Shown here piece by piece: positions 2,611 through 45,552 of a stretch of 64,000 nt of DNA. The translations under genes and the position numbers were made by a program. The notes under the pieces were generated by a model that ran no database searches, was not told where the DNA came from, and saw only the letters and a program-made list of their open reading frames with translations. Origin of the DNA: a virus; IMG/VR virus record IMGVR_UViG_3300020608_000013, positions 124,001 through 188,000 of that record. One strand, written 5' to 3'. Position 1 is the first letter of the stretch; each line of letters opens with the position of its first letter.

Positions 2611-4218
2611 TTACTCAAATTCAGTTAGATGGGCGTAAACTAATTCGTTCACGTTGTTACTTGGGCTATACATTAATTTATTTTTACGGTCAAGGTAGTA
2701 ATGGGCTTTATCGAATAAATTATGGACTTCTTGTATAGCGTCTTCAGTCCATAACGTATGAGCAGAAGTCATGTCACCATCATTATCGGCTGCTAATGGA
2801 CCGTAGTGGTTGACGTGGGGCGACATTCCGTCATAGTAGAATGTACTACCTCTGAGTGGGAAGTTAACGATTTTCTCACCAATAATAGTACCACTACTAT
2901 CAACTTGATCCAAATGAGTCGCATCGTTAGTTGTTTGTAAGTAGATTAATGAGGGATAGGTACTACCTTCATTAGCCGCAGGGTAACGGGTTACTATAGT
3001 AGGAGAGTCTCCTGCATAACTTTGCACCGATAGGTAGAGTAACTCAGTTAAATCTAAAGGTCTCAAATCTTGTTTATTGAAAACAGGCGCAAGGTCATTT
3101 TTATCGAAAAGTAACTGAACATATTTGTCATTCGATGCGATTAAGAATAAGGGCTTGCCTTTCACTTTAATAATCTCACGACGAAGTGAGTGGTTGGCGA
3201 ACCGATCAATAAGTTTACGGAGACCCTTTTCAGTATTTAATTCAGTATCGTTCTCATCAAACTTTATTACCGTTGGTTTAAAATTTGGACCTTCAAGTAC
3301 ACGAACAGTTTGGTTTGTAGGGTCGAATACTTGATCGAAAAATATAGATTTTAAATTAAATAACGCTTTAGGTAATAGGTTACTGACCGTTTGGTATAAG
3401 CCTAGAACTGTATGGTTTTCAGTGGGTAGTGTTTCATCATCGAGGTCGTGGTAACGCACGTTCATTGCGGTGAGAACGTTACGTGTTGTGTTATAAACTC
3501 CACGGTTTGCAAATTTATCCTGTGCGAACTTTTTGCGCCCGAACATAATAGACCTTATATGATGATAAACTGCATATACACCAAGTTGTATTTTAAATCG
3601 TGTAGCGTCTGCACTATACCTCGCTTCCTTATCTAATTTTGAAGGAATCAATGTGGTGAGTTGTAGCACTTTACGATACATAGGGGTTAACTCGTTTTCC
3701 TCTGGTTGACCATCGCTATTTTCTTCGACATCGCGCAGTCCCGCAGGGTAAACAAGAAATTTACTTAACAGTAAGTTATTCCTATTCATGCGGTTAAAGT
3801 CGACATCATAATTATGTCGATTGGATTGGTTGTACTCTAATCCATCGGGGTCGAAATTGCGTATAAAAAAGTCGAAACCTGTTTCACCATCAATAGCCTT
3901 CTCAAACCGCTTACTTTTCGAGTTAAAAACGGCACGTTCTTTACCTGCCATAATGTCAATGTAAAAAGCTTTCAAACGCGTTAATGTGAAAAAGATCGCA
4001 GGTTGTAAGACGGGTAATTTTAAATCAATATATCCGAAAGTAGTGTCCCGCGCTTCATCACCCTTCAGTCCAAAAATAGATTCAGAATAGAAACCTTTGT
4101 GATGATAGGCCTTCTCTCCGCTTTCGTAGATGTCGGGTACTTCAACAGGTTTTATACTGTTCACTTGCTGTGGCGTGAGTTCTAAAAGACCGAACTTTAG
4201 TGGCTGTACTTCACCCAT
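2611..4218 (-). CDS. RNA polymerase beta'-like subunit, N-terminal part with catalytic aspartates (virion type)
   Basis: This 535-residue protein carries AADNDGD (catalytic D478, D480, D482), the counterpart of NADFDGD in bacterial beta', which holds the active-site magnesium. Near the N-terminus, GFYSESIFG and FGYIDLKLPV resemble the beta' zipper region (GL.C.RIFGP and FGHIELA.PV). The protein stops shortly after the active site, as expected for the split beta' of phiKZ-like phages, whose C-terminal half is encoded elsewhere. Proximity to a gp181-like protein suggests the virion polymerase (gp180 type) more than the non-virion enzyme. The start has an AGGAG site 7 nt upstream. It forms an operon with the beta-like gene. 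Confidence 0.82.
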   Translation of the reverse strand: MGEVQPLKFGLLELTPQQVNSIKPVEVPDIYESGEKAYHHKGFYSESIFGLKGDEARDTTFGYIDLKLPVLQPAIFFTLTRLKAFYIDIMAGKERAVFNSKSKRFEKAIDGETGFDFFIRNFDPDGLEYNQSNRHNYDVDFNRMNRNNLLLSKFLVYPAGLRDVEENSDGQPEENELTPMYRKVLQLTTLIPSKLDKEARYSADATRFKIQLGVYAVYHHIRSIMFGRKKFAQDKFANRGVYNTTRNVLTAMNVRYHDLDDETLPTENHTVLGLYQTVSNLLPKALFNLKSIFFDQVFDPTNQTVRVLEGPNFKPTVIKFDENDTELNTEKGLRKLIDRFANHSLRREIIKVKGKPLFLIASNDKYVQLLFDKNDLAPVFNKQDLRPLDLTELLYLSVQSYAGDSPTIVTRYPAANEGSTYPSLIYLQTTNDATHLDQVDSSGTIIGEKIVNFPLRGSTFYYDGMSPHVNHYGPLAADNDGDMTSAHTLWTEDAIQEVHNLFDKAHYYLDRKNKLMYSPSNNVNELVYAHLTEFE

Positions 4219-6004: not shown

Positions 6005-6615
6005 TATATCGTCGCATAGGTGAATTGCCCGTGCTTAATACGAGCAGGGACATTGTTTATGAACTCATTGACACTCGACCCAACAACCCGAGTGTCGTCG
6101 TTTAACTGTATAGTTAGTTTAGGACTAACATCATAAAGAGCCTCTATATTAACAAGCTCTCTACCACGTAGGTCTAGGAGTCTTAGGTTTTTGTAGGCGG
6201 TCAGTGTTCGACAGTCTATTTGCGCGTCAGGGTACGCGCTATTTAAGTAGAGCTGTTTTAGGCGGGGTGCGCCACCTATAATCGATAACCCTTGTACGTT
6301 AGAAGCATATAAAACCTCTAAATAAGGTAGTCTATATAAGACCACGACATCATCGTGGATGGGCCTTGAAATATCGAGTATGACTAGTTCTCTAAAGTCG
6401 CTTAAAAAGCTATAGTCTTTTATAAACGCACCTTCAAGGGTAATACCTTTAACGGTGTCATACCACTCTTGTGTTAGTTTATCGACGAAAACTTCTACAT
6501 TCACGGCATTTGTTAAATTGACAAATGGGGTTGGTTTTGGTAGGCGAGATTTTTGGTTTAAGGTCTGTACGTATGTTGTATTTCTATGTTTGAAAACATC
6601 GGGGGTGTTGAACAT
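6004..6615 (-). CDS. Leucine-rich-repeat-like protein, 203 aa
   Basis: Residues about 55-180 contain irregular LRR-type units with strand motifs such as LVILDIS, LEVLYASN, LKQLYLNS and LRLLDLRG, spaced roughly 20-25 residues. Such solenoids usually bind proteins. No catalytic domain or signal peptide is visible, so a cytoplasmic partner in the host or phage is likely (inference). The gene directly follows a second LRR gene at 6639-7343 and has GGAG upstream of ATG 6615. Further LRR-like proteins occur at 51482-52282 and 61240-64000. Confidence 0.72.
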   Translation of the reverse strand: MFNTPDVFKHRNTTYVQTLNQKSRLPKPTPFVNLTNAVNVEVFVDKLTQEWYDTVKGITLEGAFIKDYSFLSDFRELVILDISRPIHDDVVVLYRLPYLEVLYASNVQGLSIIGGAPRLKQLYLNSAYPDAQIDCRTLTAYKNLRLLDLRGRELVNIEALYDVSPKLTIQLNDDTRVVGSSVNEFINNVPARIKHGQFTYATI

Positions 6616-34918: not shown

Positions 34919-34932
34919 ACGACAAAGGTTAT

Positions 34933-34966
34933 ACACGTTACTATAGCTTAAGCTATAGTAACGTGT
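34933..34966. terminator. Perfect 34-nt palindrome between convergent genes
   Basis: A 17-bp inverted repeat without any loop (centre ctt/aag) lies between the folA gene and the convergent 55-residue gene. Probably a bidirectional terminator; no T-run follows. Confidence 0.6.
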
Positions 34967-34972
34967 AACGCC

Positions 34973-38428: not shown

Positions 38429-39229
38429 TTAATTTGCAGTAGTTGTAAGATTCTTTAATAAATTTACTAAGTCTATTAATGGTCGAATCTCTGGATATAG
38501 TGACTTTTGTAAGTCAAGTTCTCCGCAACCATTAACTTCGTAATGTTTCACCATCTCTTCTAACGGTGCTTTGATCACACTATCCTTCTTCAAAAAATCT
38601 GCAATAACCTCACACTCTTCTTCAGAGTGGTATTTAGCCACTACACGAAGAACATAGCGTTTTACGTGAGTCATGTTAAAAAACTCCTCGTGAGTGCCCA
38701 TGTAAATTAATAGGCTAGTTAACGACAAGATTTGTTTTGTAGGTTTTAATTGCATTAAAAAGGAAAGGTCGTTGTTTTTATTGGGAGGTAGTCTACGTTC
38801 TATAGCACGCTTATAGTAAGCTATTTTGTCGAAATATTTACTAACCGCACTATCCTTCGTATCTTGTACATACCCTTTTGGATATTTCAATGGGTCGTTT
38901 CTCATTAGGGTGGCAAGGTCTACTGCTTGTTCCTTGGGTATCTCAAACGCTTCCGCATGTTCATAGTAGTCTGCACTACCCCAATAACTGCGTAGATAAG
39001 ACGGTGTAGCATTTAATAGAGCGTTATTCGCAAAATGCTCGATTGTTGCAACAAATCGGTAGTGTTTGGGTATATCGTCTAAAGGCGGTCTTTTCTTTTT
39101 CTTGCTTTGAGTTCCAAAAGCGCTCAAATCGTTCCAATTGATCAATGTTCTATCAAATTCTTCAAGCGCTTCCAACACTTGTTTCTCTGATGGTGTTCCC
39201 GCAAGGTCTGACGAGTCTTCTTTAGTCAT
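38429..39229 (-). CDS. Hypothetical protein, 266 aa, paralog of 39785-40924
   Basis: Unrecognised family, but clearly a paralog of the 379-residue gene upstream: LPK.YR....IE..A..AL, SYWG.A.Y.EHA.A and LTSLLI..G...EFF.M..VK align in order, as do LDL...LYPE at the C-terminal side. It lacks the coiled-coil N-terminal part of the larger copy. AAGGA precedes ATG 39229 and a TATATTATA element lies about 60 nt upstream, so it is probably made early on its own transcript. Confidence 0.73.
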   Translation of the reverse strand: MTKEDSSDLAGTPSEKQVLEALEEFDRTLINWNDLSAFGTQSKKKKRPPLDDIPKHYRFVATIEHFANNALLNATPSYLRSYWGSADYYEHAEAFEIPKEQAVDLATLMRNDPLKYPKGYVQDTKDSAVSKYFDKIAYYKRAIERRLPPNKNNDLSFLMQLKPTKQILSLTSLLIYMGTHEEFFNMTHVKRYVLRVVAKYHSEEECEVIADFLKKDSVIKAPLEEMVKHYEVNGCGELDLQKSLYPEIRPLIDLVNLLKNLTTTAN

Positions 39230-39354: not shown

Positions 39355-39389
39355 TATAGACCAAGTTGGGCAACCCAACTTGGTCTATA
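39355..39389 (-). terminator. Long hairpin with spaced T-run
   Basis: A perfect 16-bp stem with a 3-nt loop; on the minus strand a T9 tract follows after about 14 nt. It separates the KilA-N remnant from the promoter of the 266-residue gene. Confidence 0.65.
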
Positions 39390-39520
39390 CCTTCTATCAA
39401 CCTGCGTAAATTCTAATTGTGTCGAATTCGACATAATTAAAACATCGTCATACATACTTTTTAAACAAATCGACGTTCTTAAAGTTAATTAATTCAACTA
39501 TCTTTCGTCAGGAGACGTAT

Positions 39521-39780
39521 TTACTGAATAGCTGTTTTGTTTAACAGTTCAAGACGTTCTTGCTGTGGCGTACATTAAGCGTTTCTAGATTAGCAAAACA
39601 AGCCAGTTGCGAAACGTCTGCATACCACCGTAACGACCTACTCTACTTTGTATACCTATAGCGTTGGTAGCCTGAACCCATTCTTTAACGCTAATTATAT
39701 AGCTATTCAAACCTACAACACTTCTAATTCTATCGAATTCGATAGAATTAGAATTAGGGTTATAAATGCGTTCCCAAACG
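39521..39780 (-). pseudogene. Decayed KilA-N-domain gene
   Basis: Three consecutive segments on the minus strand read as a KilA-N protein once frameshifts are allowed. Segment 1 (39779 to about 39625) has VWERIYNPNSNSIEFDRI and then VKEWVQATNAIGIQSR up to RYGG, the C-terminal half of the KilA-N domain. Segment 2, one frame shifted, reads YADVSQLACFANLETLN, as in the C-terminal region of these proteins. Segment 3, shifted again, reads TPQQERLELLNKTAIQ and ends at TAA 39521. The N-terminal half is missing, cut exactly where the neighbouring 379-residue gene ends, and the middle is deleted. KilA-N genes are often mobile between phages. Confidence 0.75.
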
Positions 39781-39784
39781 CCTT

Positions 39785-40924
39785 CTACATTTTTTGACTT
39801 CTAATAGCGCCGTCTAGTGATTTAGCGATATTTAAGAACGGTTTTACTTCTGGATAGAGTGTTTCATACAAATCCCAGTCGTTGCTACCGCCTCCACCAT
39901 AGTGACTAGCCATTGCTTGCGTGACCGTATTAAAAGTGTCTGTAAGTAGAAGCGTTTTAAGCATGTCGTGTTCTTGCTTACGGTGGTTCTTCATCACAAT
40001 ATCAACAACCGCCGTTTTTACGCGAGACATACTGAAAAACTCACTATATTCCCCGACTACAATTAACAGACTTGTGAGACGAATCGCCTCTAAAGAAGGT
40101 ATTAACTGACTTAATTGACTTTTACATACGTAGCAGTCAGGTGTTCTACTTTTAATAACACTTTCATAATACTGTACTGTACGGAAAAACTCGTCGATAA
40201 TTTTCCCCTCTTTTTCACAAACGTTACTTTCGTTGAATGTGTAATCTTTATTCTTAATTAAGGTGTAGAGCTTCCCAACTTCCGTATCGGTTAGACCAAG
40301 CGCTTTCGCATGTTCAGCATACGCTTCACCTCCCCAGTAACTAAGGAGATAGCTTGCCGCATCGTCGCCCAATGCCTTTTTTGCGTAATACTCTACAGTA
40401 CTGATAACACGATTATATTTAGGTAAGTCAAGTAGATTAATAGGCTCTCCCGAAAGACAGTCGGTCATTTCTTTAAGTGTTGACGTTTCGCCACCTAGCT
40501 TCTTTTTGAGGTAGTTTTCGTATCCATTGGAAATTTCAGTGCGAACTGCCGCTAACGCACGATCTACGGCTTCACTAACCTCCTGTCTTACACGACGCTT
40601 CGTCTCTTCTTCAACCTCCGAAGACGCTTCTTTGCCAGACACCTTACTTGCCCGTTCTTTAAACGTCGTTGTCTCTGCCTCCAACGCTTCTTGAAGTTTA
40701 GTAGTGCTAAAGTGACTTCCATGTGTGTCCATTGCTAGCTCCTCTTTTAAATCATTCACGAACATCATTGCACGGAGAAAGTGTATTGATTTATTTTCAA
40801 ATTCGCCACAATAGGTTATGAAATCACGTTGAGTTGGTGTCAAAACCTCTTCATTCTTACCTATCCCGTAAACATGTTTGTGGAAAAATTTATCAATAGG
40901 TGTCGTTAAAGGCGCTTTTTCCAA
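39785..40924 (-). CDS. Hypothetical protein, 379 aa, paralog of 38429-39229
   Basis: Unrecognised. Residues about 80-165 are charged helix, a likely coiled coil (SSEVEEETKRRVRQEVSEAV). The C-terminal 210 residues align with the whole 266-residue paralog. It starts with LTPTQRDFI, one of the recurrent LTP segments. The only early in-frame start is a TTG at 40924 inside the 3' end of the upstream gene, so reinitiation is assumed; a shorter ATG form cannot be excluded. The KilA-N remnant starts directly after its stop. Confidence 0.68.
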   Translation of the reverse strand: MEKAPLTTPIDKFFHKHVYGIGKNEEVLTPTQRDFITYCGEFENKSIHFLRAMMFVNDLKEELAMDTHGSHFSTTKLQEALEAETTTFKERASKVSGKEASSEVEEETKRRVRQEVSEAVDRALAAVRTEISNGYENYLKKKLGGETSTLKEMTDCLSGEPINLLDLPKYNRVISTVEYYAKKALGDDAASYLLSYWGGEAYAEHAKALGLTDTEVGKLYTLIKNKDYTFNESNVCEKEGKIIDEFFRTVQYYESVIKSRTPDCYVCKSQLSQLIPSLEAIRLTSLLIVVGEYSEFFSMSRVKTAVVDIVMKNHRKQEHDMLKTLLLTDTFNTVTQAMASHYGGGGSNDWDLYETLYPEVKPFLNIAKSLDGAIRSQKM

Positions 40925-41919
40925 CTAGGGACGAACAACCATTTGTCGACTAGACCCTCAGTACCCTTTAAGTCTGAAATTAAAGCTTTGACACCTACAT
41001 CACCTAATAACTCCCCTGTGTCTTTGATTCTCTTGCGATTGAGTAAATCTACCACATTTTTACCATAGTCTTGATAGACTGCGCTCATCAACCCAACATC
41101 AATGGTGTCGTAGTTATAGTGACGCATTAAAGCAACAACAGTGAAGTGGTCACGACCTAAAAAATCTGCTGGACGTGTAGTGTCGGGCTTTTCGTTTGTG
41201 GATTCATCTTGGTTGGGTTTACAATGGTGTTTAGCGACATATTTAGTAACATACTTGTTTATTAAACTTGTCTGTGAAGCGCTCAAGGTACATCCTCCGT
41301 AATTTTCCCACATACGAGGGTCGAGATACCGATCATCCTGTAAGATAAAATTTAAAACGAAACTAATGTCTAAACATTTTTCGTGTTTTGAAGTCAATTC
41401 TTCTAACACTTCCTCTTCTCCAAGGTAAGCCATGAAACGCTTGTCGTTACCAAGCCCGTTATCATTAGCTACTCGCCAAACACCATAAGCGTAAACTTTA
41501 ATAGAGTCTAGACTATCACTTAGATCAACCCCAACCCTAGTGACATAATAGCTCACTAAGACATCGTAAAGTTTTTTACTAAAACCCATTTTATAAAACT
41601 CGCGCTTATCCAGACTATTACGCAATAATCTTAGAAAATTGAGTAATTTACTATGTTCCCATGCATAAGTGATCGATTCACTTTCTGCTATAATCGCATT
41701 AAGAAGTACATTTACTTCAACATCATGACCAATAGTCTCATATATGTATATAAAATGGTCGTGAACATCCCGCCCATAGACTTTTCTAATGGCGTTTAGT
41801 AAATCAACACTATTTTCCTTTGTGAAATGCGCCCCTACATGATTTAACGCTATGGTGGTAGTTTTCAGTAGCGGTAACTCGATTGTAACGTCGATAGTAT
41901 CGTGGTTCTGATTAATCAT
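40906..41919 (-). CDS. Hypothetical protein, 337 aa, similar to part of 42967-45552
   Basis: Unrecognised. The segment DDRYLDPRMWENY followed by TLSASQTSLINKYV aligns with DNRFADPRVWKTY and SLPEEQMQAVRYLV in the 861-residue protein, and the following residues also match in spacing. All-helical. GAGAGA precedes ATG 41919. It is first on a transcript driven by the TATATTATA element at 41997. Confidence 0.7.
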   Translation of the reverse strand: MINQNHDTIDVTIELPLLKTTTIALNHVGAHFTKENSVDLLNAIRKVYGRDVHDHFIYIYETIGHDVEVNVLLNAIIAESESITYAWEHSKLLNFLRLLRNSLDKREFYKMGFSKKLYDVLVSYYVTRVGVDLSDSLDSIKVYAYGVWRVANDNGLGNDKRFMAYLGEEEVLEELTSKHEKCLDISFVLNFILQDDRYLDPRMWENYGGCTLSASQTSLINKYVTKYVAKHHCKPNQDESTNEKPDTTRPADFLGRDHFTVVALMRHYNYDTIDVGLMSAVYQDYGKNVVDLLNRKRIKDTGELLGDVGVKALISDLKGTEGLVDKWLFVPSWKKRL

Positions 41920-42893: not shown

Positions 42894-42912
42894 AGTAAAC
42901 ACTCGTGTTTAA

Positions 42913-42952
42913 TTAGAGGGTCTAGTGTGCTATAGCACACTAGACCCTCTAA
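42913..42952. repeat. Perfect 40-nt palindrome
   Basis: Twenty bases (starting ttagagggtc) are followed immediately by their reverse complement, without a loop, in the 73-nt gap between the 861- and 265-residue genes. No T-run follows on either strand. It could be a terminator, an RNA-processing hairpin or a protein-binding site. Confidence 0.7.
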
Positions 42953-42966
42953 TAAGTTAATTAAGA

Positions 42967-45552
42967 TTAATAAATAAACTTTTTACGTAGGTTGTTCAAT
43001 TCCTCCAATTTCTCTGTGTAGTCTGTGATTTCATCAAAAGGTTTTTTACTAACCATATCTCGTTCGTCGACTTTAGCCAAAGTTCTTGCTATCGTTTTAG
43101 CATAATCTTTATAATGACCACTTGAGAATATTTCAAAAACCACTGGGTTTCGTCTACAGTTTTTAAACGCTACGCTTTTCAAAAACTGTAGGTTTTCTAA
43201 CACATTATAGTACTCTCTATGTTCGTACAAATGGAGTAAAGTGTTCGCTACTTTCACTCGATTCTCTGACTCAGGGATTCGGTTTAATAGCTGGTAGAGT
43301 TTACTATCTGTATCTAAACCTAATAGGTGTTTCAGATAGTAATTCTTGTCATGCACGCGCTCATAATCGGCGACAAGGTAACGAACCGCTTGCATTTGTT
43401 CTTCGGGTAATGAAGTCGTGTGGTAGGTTTTCCACACGCGTGGGTCAGCGAAACGATTGTCATTGAGAACATTCTCGATTAGACGTTGTACAACTTTTCC
43501 TCTCTCGTCACGAGGGATGAACTTACCTACTAGCCCTTCCCGTACTAGATATTTAAAAACAAAAGTGTTCCCGCCAAGATTGTATTGATCAACCACGCGC
43601 ATAGTAGATGATAAACATACTCTTATGTAGTCGTAATCATCTATTGTTGCAAGCCCCATTTCTAGCGCATGACGCTCGATAAGTGATTTTGGGATATGGT
43701 AGTCTGCCCCAATCGTGCCTAAATGTTTTAAGCACTTGTATGCTTCAACATACTCCCATACCTCAGTCAAGGGGAGGCTCTTTTCAACATGTCGATTAAG
43801 TACGTTGTCTACATGGGAGGCATCGCTAGAGCCTTTATACAGATTCAAGAGATGTTCGTAAACCCCAGCACCATAAGCAACTTTAGCGGCACGCATTATG
43901 ATTTCGCGCACATCTACTGCAAAACGTTCTTTAGCATACTTCAACGTTTTAAAAAGGCCGCTTAACAACACCACATCTACTTTTTTATTAGCATCTTCAA
44001 ACTCATCTACTGAGAGACTGTGGATAAAACTAACAACAAACTTGTTGACGCTGACGAAATTGATAGTATTCGTATCTAGTGACAGGTAATATAAATTACC
44101 CATTAATGCTACATCTGTTAAGACTCCCTTAAAGAAGTCTACAGTTATACTCAATGCGTTCAATTCGTGCGTAGTGACTGGCGAGTCTAACTTAAGCGCT
44201 CGTGTAACTAAAGTGTTAAGGTCACATTTTTTAACAAATGTTATGATGTTCTTTCTATTTAATTCACCATAGCTTTGAAGTATTATCAAAACACAAGTAA
44301 TTAGATTCTTAACACCGCTTAGGGTCGTAGGGTCAAGACTAAACGCATGTTTACTATGTTTCCAATCGACGAACACCTCTAACGACGTTTGGGTAATCCC
44401 CAACTCTTTATAAGCCTCCTCATCTAGTAATTGAGTTAGTAACTTATTAAACATATAGGCGCTATGGAAATCTGCTTGTGAGTGATTAGGTTCAACCACC
44501 CGCTCAAAATCCATTCCATGAGAACCTACTTTACGCGCCTCTTCCCCGAACACTTTACCTAATGCGGTAGCGACAGCTTGGGGAGCCGCGCCTTCGCGAT
44601 CATACCCGAGGTAAGTTAGCACACTACTAACGTTCTTATCGAAGGATAATGTTGATGTTTTAGAACTTGGTATAGTAACTGTACTCGTTTTTGAGTCAAC
44701 GACACTATCAATGCAAGCGTTGATATATTTGTCAACTAAATCGACATCAACCGTGTGTTTATACAAGGCGGCTAACCAACGGCTATCTTCGCCAGTCTCG
44801 CCACCTATATTCGAGAACATTAGTTGTCTCGTACCGTTATTAACTTTAAAGCCCATAGTGTGGTAAATGGTGAAGTATGGGTTTAGATAAGATGGGTACC
44901 AAGGTTGGTCTAACTTTGTAAACAACCCTGTTAGCACACCGCCAACTACGGCTACAACAATACTTCTTGTGAAGTCTATGGGGAACACGCATTCTTGATC
45001 GACACGCACTTCTTCTAAGCTTTTTGTTATGTCACTATAACAATTGATCTTCTTCGATAGTAGGTAACGTCTACAGTCTTTTGCGACCGTAGTTGTGAAA
45101 TGTTGTTCAACTAGGGCAATTATACAGTCTAATGAACCCTCATCTATCTCTACTCTAAAGAAACTTAAAACGCCAACTATTTGTTTGATAGTTTGACATT
45201 TGTTCCCATTACCTGACACATCACTGATTTTGCAATCAATGGTTCTTTTCCCCCACACGTTAGTAATGCCTTCGTACACATTCTCAGGAGACTCTTTTTC
45301 CAGTACGGTTTCAAACATCTTCGCTAGATTTTCATCATAACATGATGGGTCTTTACTAACAACCCATCCGCCCAATATGTCGGTTAAGACAGTCCCACTT
45401 CCTTTAATGAAGTTTTCAATATGTTTTTGAGAAGTCTTGTCTTCCTCTTTTAAGTTGGTAAGTAGTTTCTTAAAAACGGTAATGTCATCAACACCTTTTT
45501 CACGCATGATTGTGGAGGCGGTGTTTAATATTGTAAGCGTTCGAGTTTGCAT
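42967..45552 (-). CDS. Hypothetical protein, 861 aa
   Basis: The largest gene of the accessory block, unrecognised. Almost entirely helical, with no signal peptide. Residues about 700-740 match the 337-residue protein (DPRVWKTY, then SLPEEQ), suggesting it arose by duplication and fusion of such units. AAGGA precedes ATG 45552. Confidence 0.72.
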   Translation of the reverse strand: MQTRTLTILNTASTIMREKGVDDITVFKKLLTNLKEEDKTSQKHIENFIKGSGTVLTDILGGWVVSKDPSCYDENLAKMFETVLEKESPENVYEGITNVWGKRTIDCKISDVSGNGNKCQTIKQIVGVLSFFRVEIDEGSLDCIIALVEQHFTTTVAKDCRRYLLSKKINCYSDITKSLEEVRVDQECVFPIDFTRSIVVAVVGGVLTGLFTKLDQPWYPSYLNPYFTIYHTMGFKVNNGTRQLMFSNIGGETGEDSRWLAALYKHTVDVDLVDKYINACIDSVVDSKTSTVTIPSSKTSTLSFDKNVSSVLTYLGYDREGAAPQAVATALGKVFGEEARKVGSHGMDFERVVEPNHSQADFHSAYMFNKLLTQLLDEEAYKELGITQTSLEVFVDWKHSKHAFSLDPTTLSGVKNLITCVLIILQSYGELNRKNIITFVKKCDLNTLVTRALKLDSPVTTHELNALSITVDFFKGVLTDVALMGNLYYLSLDTNTINFVSVNKFVVSFIHSLSVDEFEDANKKVDVVLLSGLFKTLKYAKERFAVDVREIIMRAAKVAYGAGVYEHLLNLYKGSSDASHVDNVLNRHVEKSLPLTEVWEYVEAYKCLKHLGTIGADYHIPKSLIERHALEMGLATIDDYDYIRVCLSSTMRVVDQYNLGGNTFVFKYLVREGLVGKFIPRDERGKVVQRLIENVLNDNRFADPRVWKTYHTTSLPEEQMQAVRYLVADYERVHDKNYYLKHLLGLDTDSKLYQLLNRIPESENRVKVANTLLHLYEHREYYNVLENLQFLKSVAFKNCRRNPVVFEIFSSGHYKDYAKTIARTLAKVDERDMVSKKPFDEITDYTEKLEELNNLRKKFIY

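Follow-up and report, generated by a model that had tools for sequence, protein, structure and literature searches.

A co-varying palindrome within the codons of PDC-S22-type KilA-N genes, retained in a broken gene of a phiKZ-like jumbo phage and found alone in other viruses

One of the closest described systems to the one reported here is BstA, an abortive-infection protein with a KilA-N-like domain, for which a cognate DNA-based element in the locus protects the carrier phage even without the protein (PMC8585504). This element, aba, spans 63 base pairs (bp) at the 5′ end of the bstA gene and contains CCCGCC direct repeats (Owen et al. 2021, PMC8585504). In this work we describe a 32-nucleotide (nt) palindrome in the coding region of another group of KilA-N genes, those that match the PADLOC model PDC-S22. 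It stands in a broken copy of such a gene in a stretch of viral DNA of 64,000 nt, positions 124,001 to 188,000 of the IMG/VR record IMGVR_UViG_3300020608_000013, which we refer to as the window.

The two systems share a DNA-binding domain of the KilA-N (or KilA-N-like) type, a DNA element that overlaps the gene and allele-specific variants of that element. While aba works on a phage that lacks the protein, many of the palindromes reported below likewise stand without the gene, and by analogy they may confer immunity. Palindromes embedded in coding sequence are also a feature of Rickettsia, where the palindromic elements are repeated over many genes of one genome. The palindrome described here sits instead at the same homologous position throughout a single gene family that spans domains of life, and has additional orphan copies in viruses.

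A palindrome in the codons of PDC-S22 genes

Intact PDC-S22 genes carry a fixed-length 32-bp palindrome with conserved ends and core and with diversifying, co-varying arms. These genes occur in bacteria, archaea and phages, and the palindrome is located some 190 nt from the start of the gene, within the part that encodes KilA-N. The window contains a perfect copy in a gene remnant:

39722..39753: perfect 32-nt palindrome TTCTAATTCTATCGAATTCGATAGAATTAGAA, inside piece 1 of the remnant; an equivalent palindrome is present in 142 relatives
39624..39788, minus strand: KilA-N remnant piece 1, residues 53-105, an open frame covering the second part of the KilA-N domain

The 142 relatives come from IMG/VR and GTDB and were found with patterns that favour F[NK] beside the site, not the arms. 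Their corresponding codons (FNxxEFxxIK) form a palindrome averaging 13.4 of 15 pairs, compared with 4.0 at other gene positions. Drawing synonymous codons yields just 8.9 of 15 pairs, which rules out that the palindrome is forced by the protein sequence. Among 129 distinct sequences, pairs 1-16 are complementary in 64-99% and pair 17 in 8%, a sharp edge at pair 16. The ends (TTTAA/TTAAA) and the core (CGAATTCG) are conserved; in between, six pairs vary in a compensatory manner, and the amino acids often change as well. In a set of 64 sequences, 95.5% of cells pair and 126 cells are changed on both sides, against 44 in shuffles (0/500 reach 126); shifting the register lowers pairing to 35-59%. 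On a tree built without the palindrome codons the arm hexamer has changed at least 52 times. For pair 6, an average of 8.5 out of 10 phylogenetically independent comparisons agree in direction, and no comparison is opposed (median p 0.008). The palindrome is therefore conserved as DNA (or RNA), over and above its coding role.

The window copy has some features of its own. Its Phe codon, the middle T of which is invariant in 129 relatives, now reads TCT and completes the pairing with AGA. This single case agrees with selection on the palindrome or with its correction from a template. The outer form of the site also occurs in non-coding sites near intact genes (loci L137 and L105), and a search of phage records with the exact 32-mer gave partial matches only. 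The arm hexamers of the window (TTCTAT; TTATGT/TTGTGT) are missing from the sampled in-gene vocabulary, and for this reason a cognate allele for the window site was not identified. A role as terminator was rejected, as no T tract follows the palindrome.

Sites with and without the gene

The motif was also used on its own, with the arms unspecified, to scan 497 bacterial genomes, in a 32-nt form for 297 Bacteroidota and a 30-nt form for 200 Pseudomonadota. In the Bacteroidota there were matches in 30 of the 297 genomes (reversed control 0), nearly all of them inside KilA-N genes or their remnants; L354 is the only clear exception, and just 3/6 of its pairs are symmetric. All sites in the 200 Pseudomonadota genomes lie inside a KilA-N gene or remnant. 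A search for E. coli genomes with the site of L182 returned none.

In many viral contigs, on the other hand, palindromes of this class occur with no detectable KilA-N gene, and their arms come from the gene repertoire. The main motif matched at least 120 stretches, from which 80 loci were read, and a TTCTAA...TTAGAA form matched at least 18. After removal of duplicates, at least 80 sites are orphans and at least 12 lie in KilA-N genes or remnants. In the inner arms of the orphans, the part not fixed by the pattern, 3.9 of 6 pairs are symmetric among the matches listed. At least 24 orphans have five or more of the six free pairs symmetric, where 0.5 would be expected by chance. A chance origin was rejected because a control core designed in the same way matched 16 times, with an inner symmetry of 1.8/6. 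Of the orphan half-sites among the matches listed, 93 of 160 (58%) have a hexamer that belongs to the 66 known from intact genes; the corresponding values are 13% for a column-shuffled control and 0/32 for the control core. None of 30 orphan-bearing contigs examined contains a KilA-N gene, in a search run without a positive control; a related protein query does detect the window remnant.

The orphans are mostly intergenic, several of them between convergent genes, and some lie within reading frames. They appear as isolated islands of 30-32 nt in DNA with a guanine-plus-cytosine (GC) content of 26-66%. No T tract follows them, and an inspection by eye for target duplications around them found no consistent pattern. 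A good example is L336, a 154-kb phiKZ-like contig with RNA polymerase genes. Its orphan, at 6031-6062, is a perfect palindrome that stands upstream of a gene for an RNA polymerase subunit and has one base per arm different from the window site; no KilA-N remnant accompanies it. In Streptococcus phages the site lies between a small gene and the scaffold or terminase genes, and the left half of several of these sites is ACTGGT, an arm of the KilA-N genes in Streptococcus satellites. In a set of these phages (L345, L397 and L400-L406) a conserved 88-amino acid (aa) gene lies on one side of a half-symmetric site and differing downstream genes on the other, which makes this place a mosaic junction; L401 and L403 have lost part of the site. 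The orphan flanks in L238 and L253 read like the end of a tRNA gene and are perhaps near integration sites.

The 212-kb record from which the window is taken contains exactly two sites of the class. The second is 311 nt from the perfect palindrome:

39411..39442: second site of the same class, TTTTAATTATGTCGAATTCGACACAATTAGAA, 14/16 pairs, orphan type, with flanks that are not KilA-N-like

In one frame this site encodes FNYVEFDTIR. We rejected it as a second KilA-N remnant, since random pieces of the window reach its flank scores in 112/600 and 301/600 cases. Because the flanks resemble KilA-N DNA no more than random pieces do, the site is treated as orphan-type. Additional sites also accompany intact genes: in L038, L095, L108, L115, L135 and L137 an extra single palindrome is found about 226-300 nt before the in-gene centre. 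The richest case is L105, a Saprospiraceae metagenome-assembled genome, where six palindromes with differing arms form an array ahead of an intact KilA-N gene, between offsets -548 and -245 relative to the in-gene centre. The palindrome at -245 shares its arms with the in-gene site, and the one at -331 matches the perfect site of the window at 30/32 bases.

The broken gene, its family and its surroundings

The locus is a recently broken remnant of a horizontally acquired PDC-S22-type KilA-N gene in a phiKZ-like jumbo phage. One KilA-N protein, with a full length of about 275-276 aa, is represented on the minus strand at 39524-39788 by three pieces, which are in order but shifted in frame. In addition to piece 1 these are:

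39568..39621, minus strand: KilA-N remnant piece 2, ADVSQLACFANLETLN, model positions ~214-236 in a shifted frame, assigned by hidden Markov model (HMM) E 0.023, order and adjacency
39524..39566, minus strand: KilA-N remnant piece 3, QQERLELLNKTAIQ, model positions ~242-256 in a shifted frame with a terminal stop, assigned by HMM E 1.3, order and adjacency

Piece 1, the translation of 39782-39624 (minus strand), reads GVWERIYNPNSNSIEFDRIRSVVGLNSYIISVKEWVQATNAIGIQSRVGRYGG and aligns gap-free with residues 53-105 of KilA-N proteins of about 276 aa. Its identity to the KilA-N proteins that Streptococcus satellite phages encode is 53% (tblastn 2e-13), and among genes of bacterial genomes it reaches 68%; the 159-nt core of the remnant has no stops and no frameshifts. 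We built an HMM from 132 full-length relatives and searched it against every six-frame piece of the 64-kb window. Its top four matches all fall within 39400-39800 (E 5e-23, 0.023, 0.48 and 1.3). Taken singly, pieces 2 and 3 are each near chance level. In a joint frameshift-aware alignment the best single relative scores 48 (shuffles 25 +/- 4), and the remaining relatives score 28-37 (shuffle maxima 35-41). As the single scores are weak and most joint scores are within the shuffle maxima, these two pieces rely chiefly on order, adjacency and the profile.

The remnant has lost about 52 N-terminal residues, about 110 internal residues and a few bases near the 3′ end, the last of these a short loss that shifts the frame from piece 2 to piece 3. 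The homology begins at 39782, next to the stop codon of the gene at 39785, and the N-terminal part is gone. No other KilA-N gene was found in the 212-kb record. A preliminary description of this DNA had proposed that a KilA-N gene between two paralogs had decayed and suffered an internal deletion, leaving three shifted segments in order, of which the later ones derive from the C-terminus. This is confirmed by tblastn, the gap-free alignment, PADLOC and the HMM, the second and fourth matches of which are in the correct order. The same description expected a KilA-N match, which was obtained with tblastn, the HMM and PDC-S22; the Pfam part of this expectation failed, as the fragment alone, which covers under half of the domain, does not match PF04383. 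It also named conserved non-coding sequence as the contrary outcome. The region is a KilA-N gene remnant, and the palindrome within it is nonetheless an element conserved at the DNA level throughout the family.

The fragment matches PDC-S22 (model PDLC04962) with E 4.7e-20, and all intact relatives tested match it at 1e-123 to 1e-131; the window copy is thus a broken remnant of a PDC-S22 member, not an intact single gene. Full-length relatives match PF04383 at 1e-21 to 1e-23 (75.6 and 82.9 bits, cut-off 23.8). An NCBIfam search gave no match, and PHROGs labels the phage relatives ‘transcriptional regulator’ (phrog_2657). Among the PADLOC matches of the relatives, obtained with PADLOC models only, the BstA family is absent. 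The co-occurrence of PDC-S22 with other systems has been mentioned (PMC12813430). In the literature searched, where subscription journals and preprints were scarcely covered, there was neither a functional test of PDC-S22 nor an account of the in-gene palindrome.

The structure predicted for the PDC-S22 subfamily is a confident one, with a predicted local distance difference test score (pLDDT) of 90.7, and in this model the palindrome codons would form a helix at residues 64-73. The nearest solved fold (Foldseek, E 1.6e-4, probability 1.0) is DdrC of Deinococcus radiodurans, a dimeric DNA-binding protein. It resembles the predicted fold, but the identity is just 10-14% and the TM-score about 0.3-0.4, and DdrC is annotated as a DNA-damage response protein. 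We looked for conserved neighbour genes at the bacterial KilA-N loci and found none; repressor and integrase neighbours were seen in viral contigs only. Of the 79 measurable open reading frames (ORFs) among the bacterial copies, 14 are clearly short. In the GTDB loci (L092-L171, L351-L380 and L410-L418) PDC-S22 genes are often broken or truncated and many of the remnants retain the palindrome, where those located via the motif are preselected for retaining it.

The 212-kb record has a phiKZ-type multisubunit RNA polymerase gene at 2611-4218 (phrog_2986, E 7.5e-136), which is 31-34% identical to those of jumbo phages of Erwinia, Vibrio and Salmonella. Judged by this gene and by the large genome, the record is a phiKZ-like jumbo phage. 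Around the remnant lie the following features:

39785..40924, minus strand: upstream paralog, 379 aa, with a stop codon that abuts the remnant
38429..39229, minus strand: downstream paralog, 266 aa, paralogous to the 39785 gene
39355..39389: ordinary hairpin with 16-bp arms and a 3-nt loop, then a T run on the minus strand, a probable transcription terminator

The two flanking genes are indeed paralogs, as previously proposed (33.5% identity over 209 aa), and have no significant family match. Neither relatives of the neighbouring paralog nor close relatives of the phage were found in IMG/VR or INPHARED. By comparison, intact relatives of the KilA-N gene are 43-70% identical to L095, about the same as the remnant core is to intact genes (53-68%). 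Since the core matches intact genes as well as they match each other, the gene broke recently relative to the old duplication.

The last codons of the upstream paralog (IRSQKM-stop) are suggestive, by eye, of the KilA-N sequence LRNRNTVE. A second pair of paralogs is nearby, at 40906-41919 and 42967-45552 (22% identity over 223 aa), and the minus-strand gene block around the remnant is rich in diverged duplications. Longer perfect palindromes, unrelated to the one described here, are found in intergenic gaps at 42912-42953 (42 nt) and 34932-34967 (36 nt).

Self-recognition and competing explanations

The site class itself is well supported; for its function we infer a decoy. Our favoured reading, at a probability of roughly 0.45, is that the palindrome is a cognate self-recognition site in the DNA, comparable to aba, which phages keep or acquire as a decoy. 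A PDC-S22-type protein would act as a single-gene phage defence and would recognise its own locus by this site. A replicon with a matching palindrome would be spared, as aba spares BstA-encoding prophages, so that a phage would profit from the palindrome alone, whether kept or acquired. The window may then be an intermediate stage, in which the gene was captured and the protein lost while the tag was retained. As such a recognition site would be embedded in the codons of the protein, site and protein would have to change together. A broader claim, which we hold a little more tentatively, is that a KilA-N defence family of bacteria, archaea, phages and satellites encodes its own site in its codons, that phages including phiKZ-like jumbo phages carry the stolen passwords, and that the window is a half-finished theft.

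Several points weigh against self-recognition. PDC-S22 is a candidate phage defence, named as such by computation only. A PDC-S22-type protein is not classed as a BstA, and the proposal is that its site may work like aba, not that it is aba: the one is a 63-bp direct-repeat element at the 5′ end of a gene, the other a 32-bp palindrome about 190 nt into it. The orphans are less symmetric than the in-gene sites (3.9/6 against 5.3/6, among the matches listed), and the viral orphan counts are lower bounds, possibly order-biased, from incomplete contigs. As the gene broke recently, survival of the palindrome in this phage is not by itself proof of selection. The extra palindromes upstream of intact KilA-N genes mostly differ in their arms from the in-gene site, for which the password model would account only by adding immunity to other alleles.

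The simplest alternative is that of ordinary junk: a KilA-N gene was acquired, broke recently and is being deleted, with the palindrome in this phage as the leftover of a dead gene, irrespective of any role in intact genes. The remnant core fits this, as it has no stops and is normally similar to intact genes, leaving too little time to test retention; bacterial copies are often broken too (the 14 short ORFs noted above). We nevertheless consider this unlikely. It does not explain why an orphan-type site without KilA-N flanks stands 311 nt away, why the distant phiKZ-like contig L336 has a near-identical orphan and no remnant, or why an otherwise invariant Phe codon in the remnant has changed toward completing the palindrome.

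That the arms co-vary, as they would in a structure-constrained element, raises the idea of a folded hairpin (in RNA processing or as a DNA cruciform) or of a tiny mobile palindromic element. The orphans would then be scattered copies, and one ancient copy would have been fixed in the KilA-N gene. Their isolation as 30-32-nt islands in DNA of very different GC content, in some cases within reading frames, is what such an element would produce. The cellular scans show almost no copies outside KilA-N genes, however, the orphan arms match the gene vocabulary, the T tract is absent and target duplications showed no consistent pattern by eye. We regard this explanation as improbable.

We give very slightly less weight to an operator. 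In this view the KilA-N protein regulates transcription and acts as a repressor of its own gene from a site within the frame, and the orphans are operators of other promoters. The PHROGs label of the phage relatives points this way, as do the extra palindromes upstream of the start codon in L038, L095, L105, L108, L115, L135 and L137 and the DNA binding of dimer-like relatives (the structural match DdrC). The arms of these upstream sites are mostly unlike those of the in-gene site, though, and the orphans are often placed where two genes converge, and also on contigs that lack the protein. Finally, the preliminary description combined a capture of the KilA-N gene, at the time when the two paralogs were duplicated, with a hotspot of recombination at this locus. 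The remnant does sit exactly between them, but the combination is very improbable. Capture at that time is not supported, as the divergence of the paralogs (33.5% identity, against 53-68% for the remnant and intact relatives) far exceeds the decay of the remnant; for the hotspot, no comparable locus was found in IMG/VR or the phage collection.

The cognate in-gene element of BstA has so far been an isolated case, with an unexplained mechanism. If the self-recognition reading is true, direct tests of how KilA-N proteins tell self from non-self would come within reach, e.g. through binding assays and arm swaps, as the family is large and its palindrome short, defined and diversifying. It would also mean that phages can defeat a defence via a 32-bp DNA tag rather than a protein inhibitor. 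Whatever its function, the motif is a DNA-only marker for such genes in cellular genomes and for an orphan class of sites in phages.
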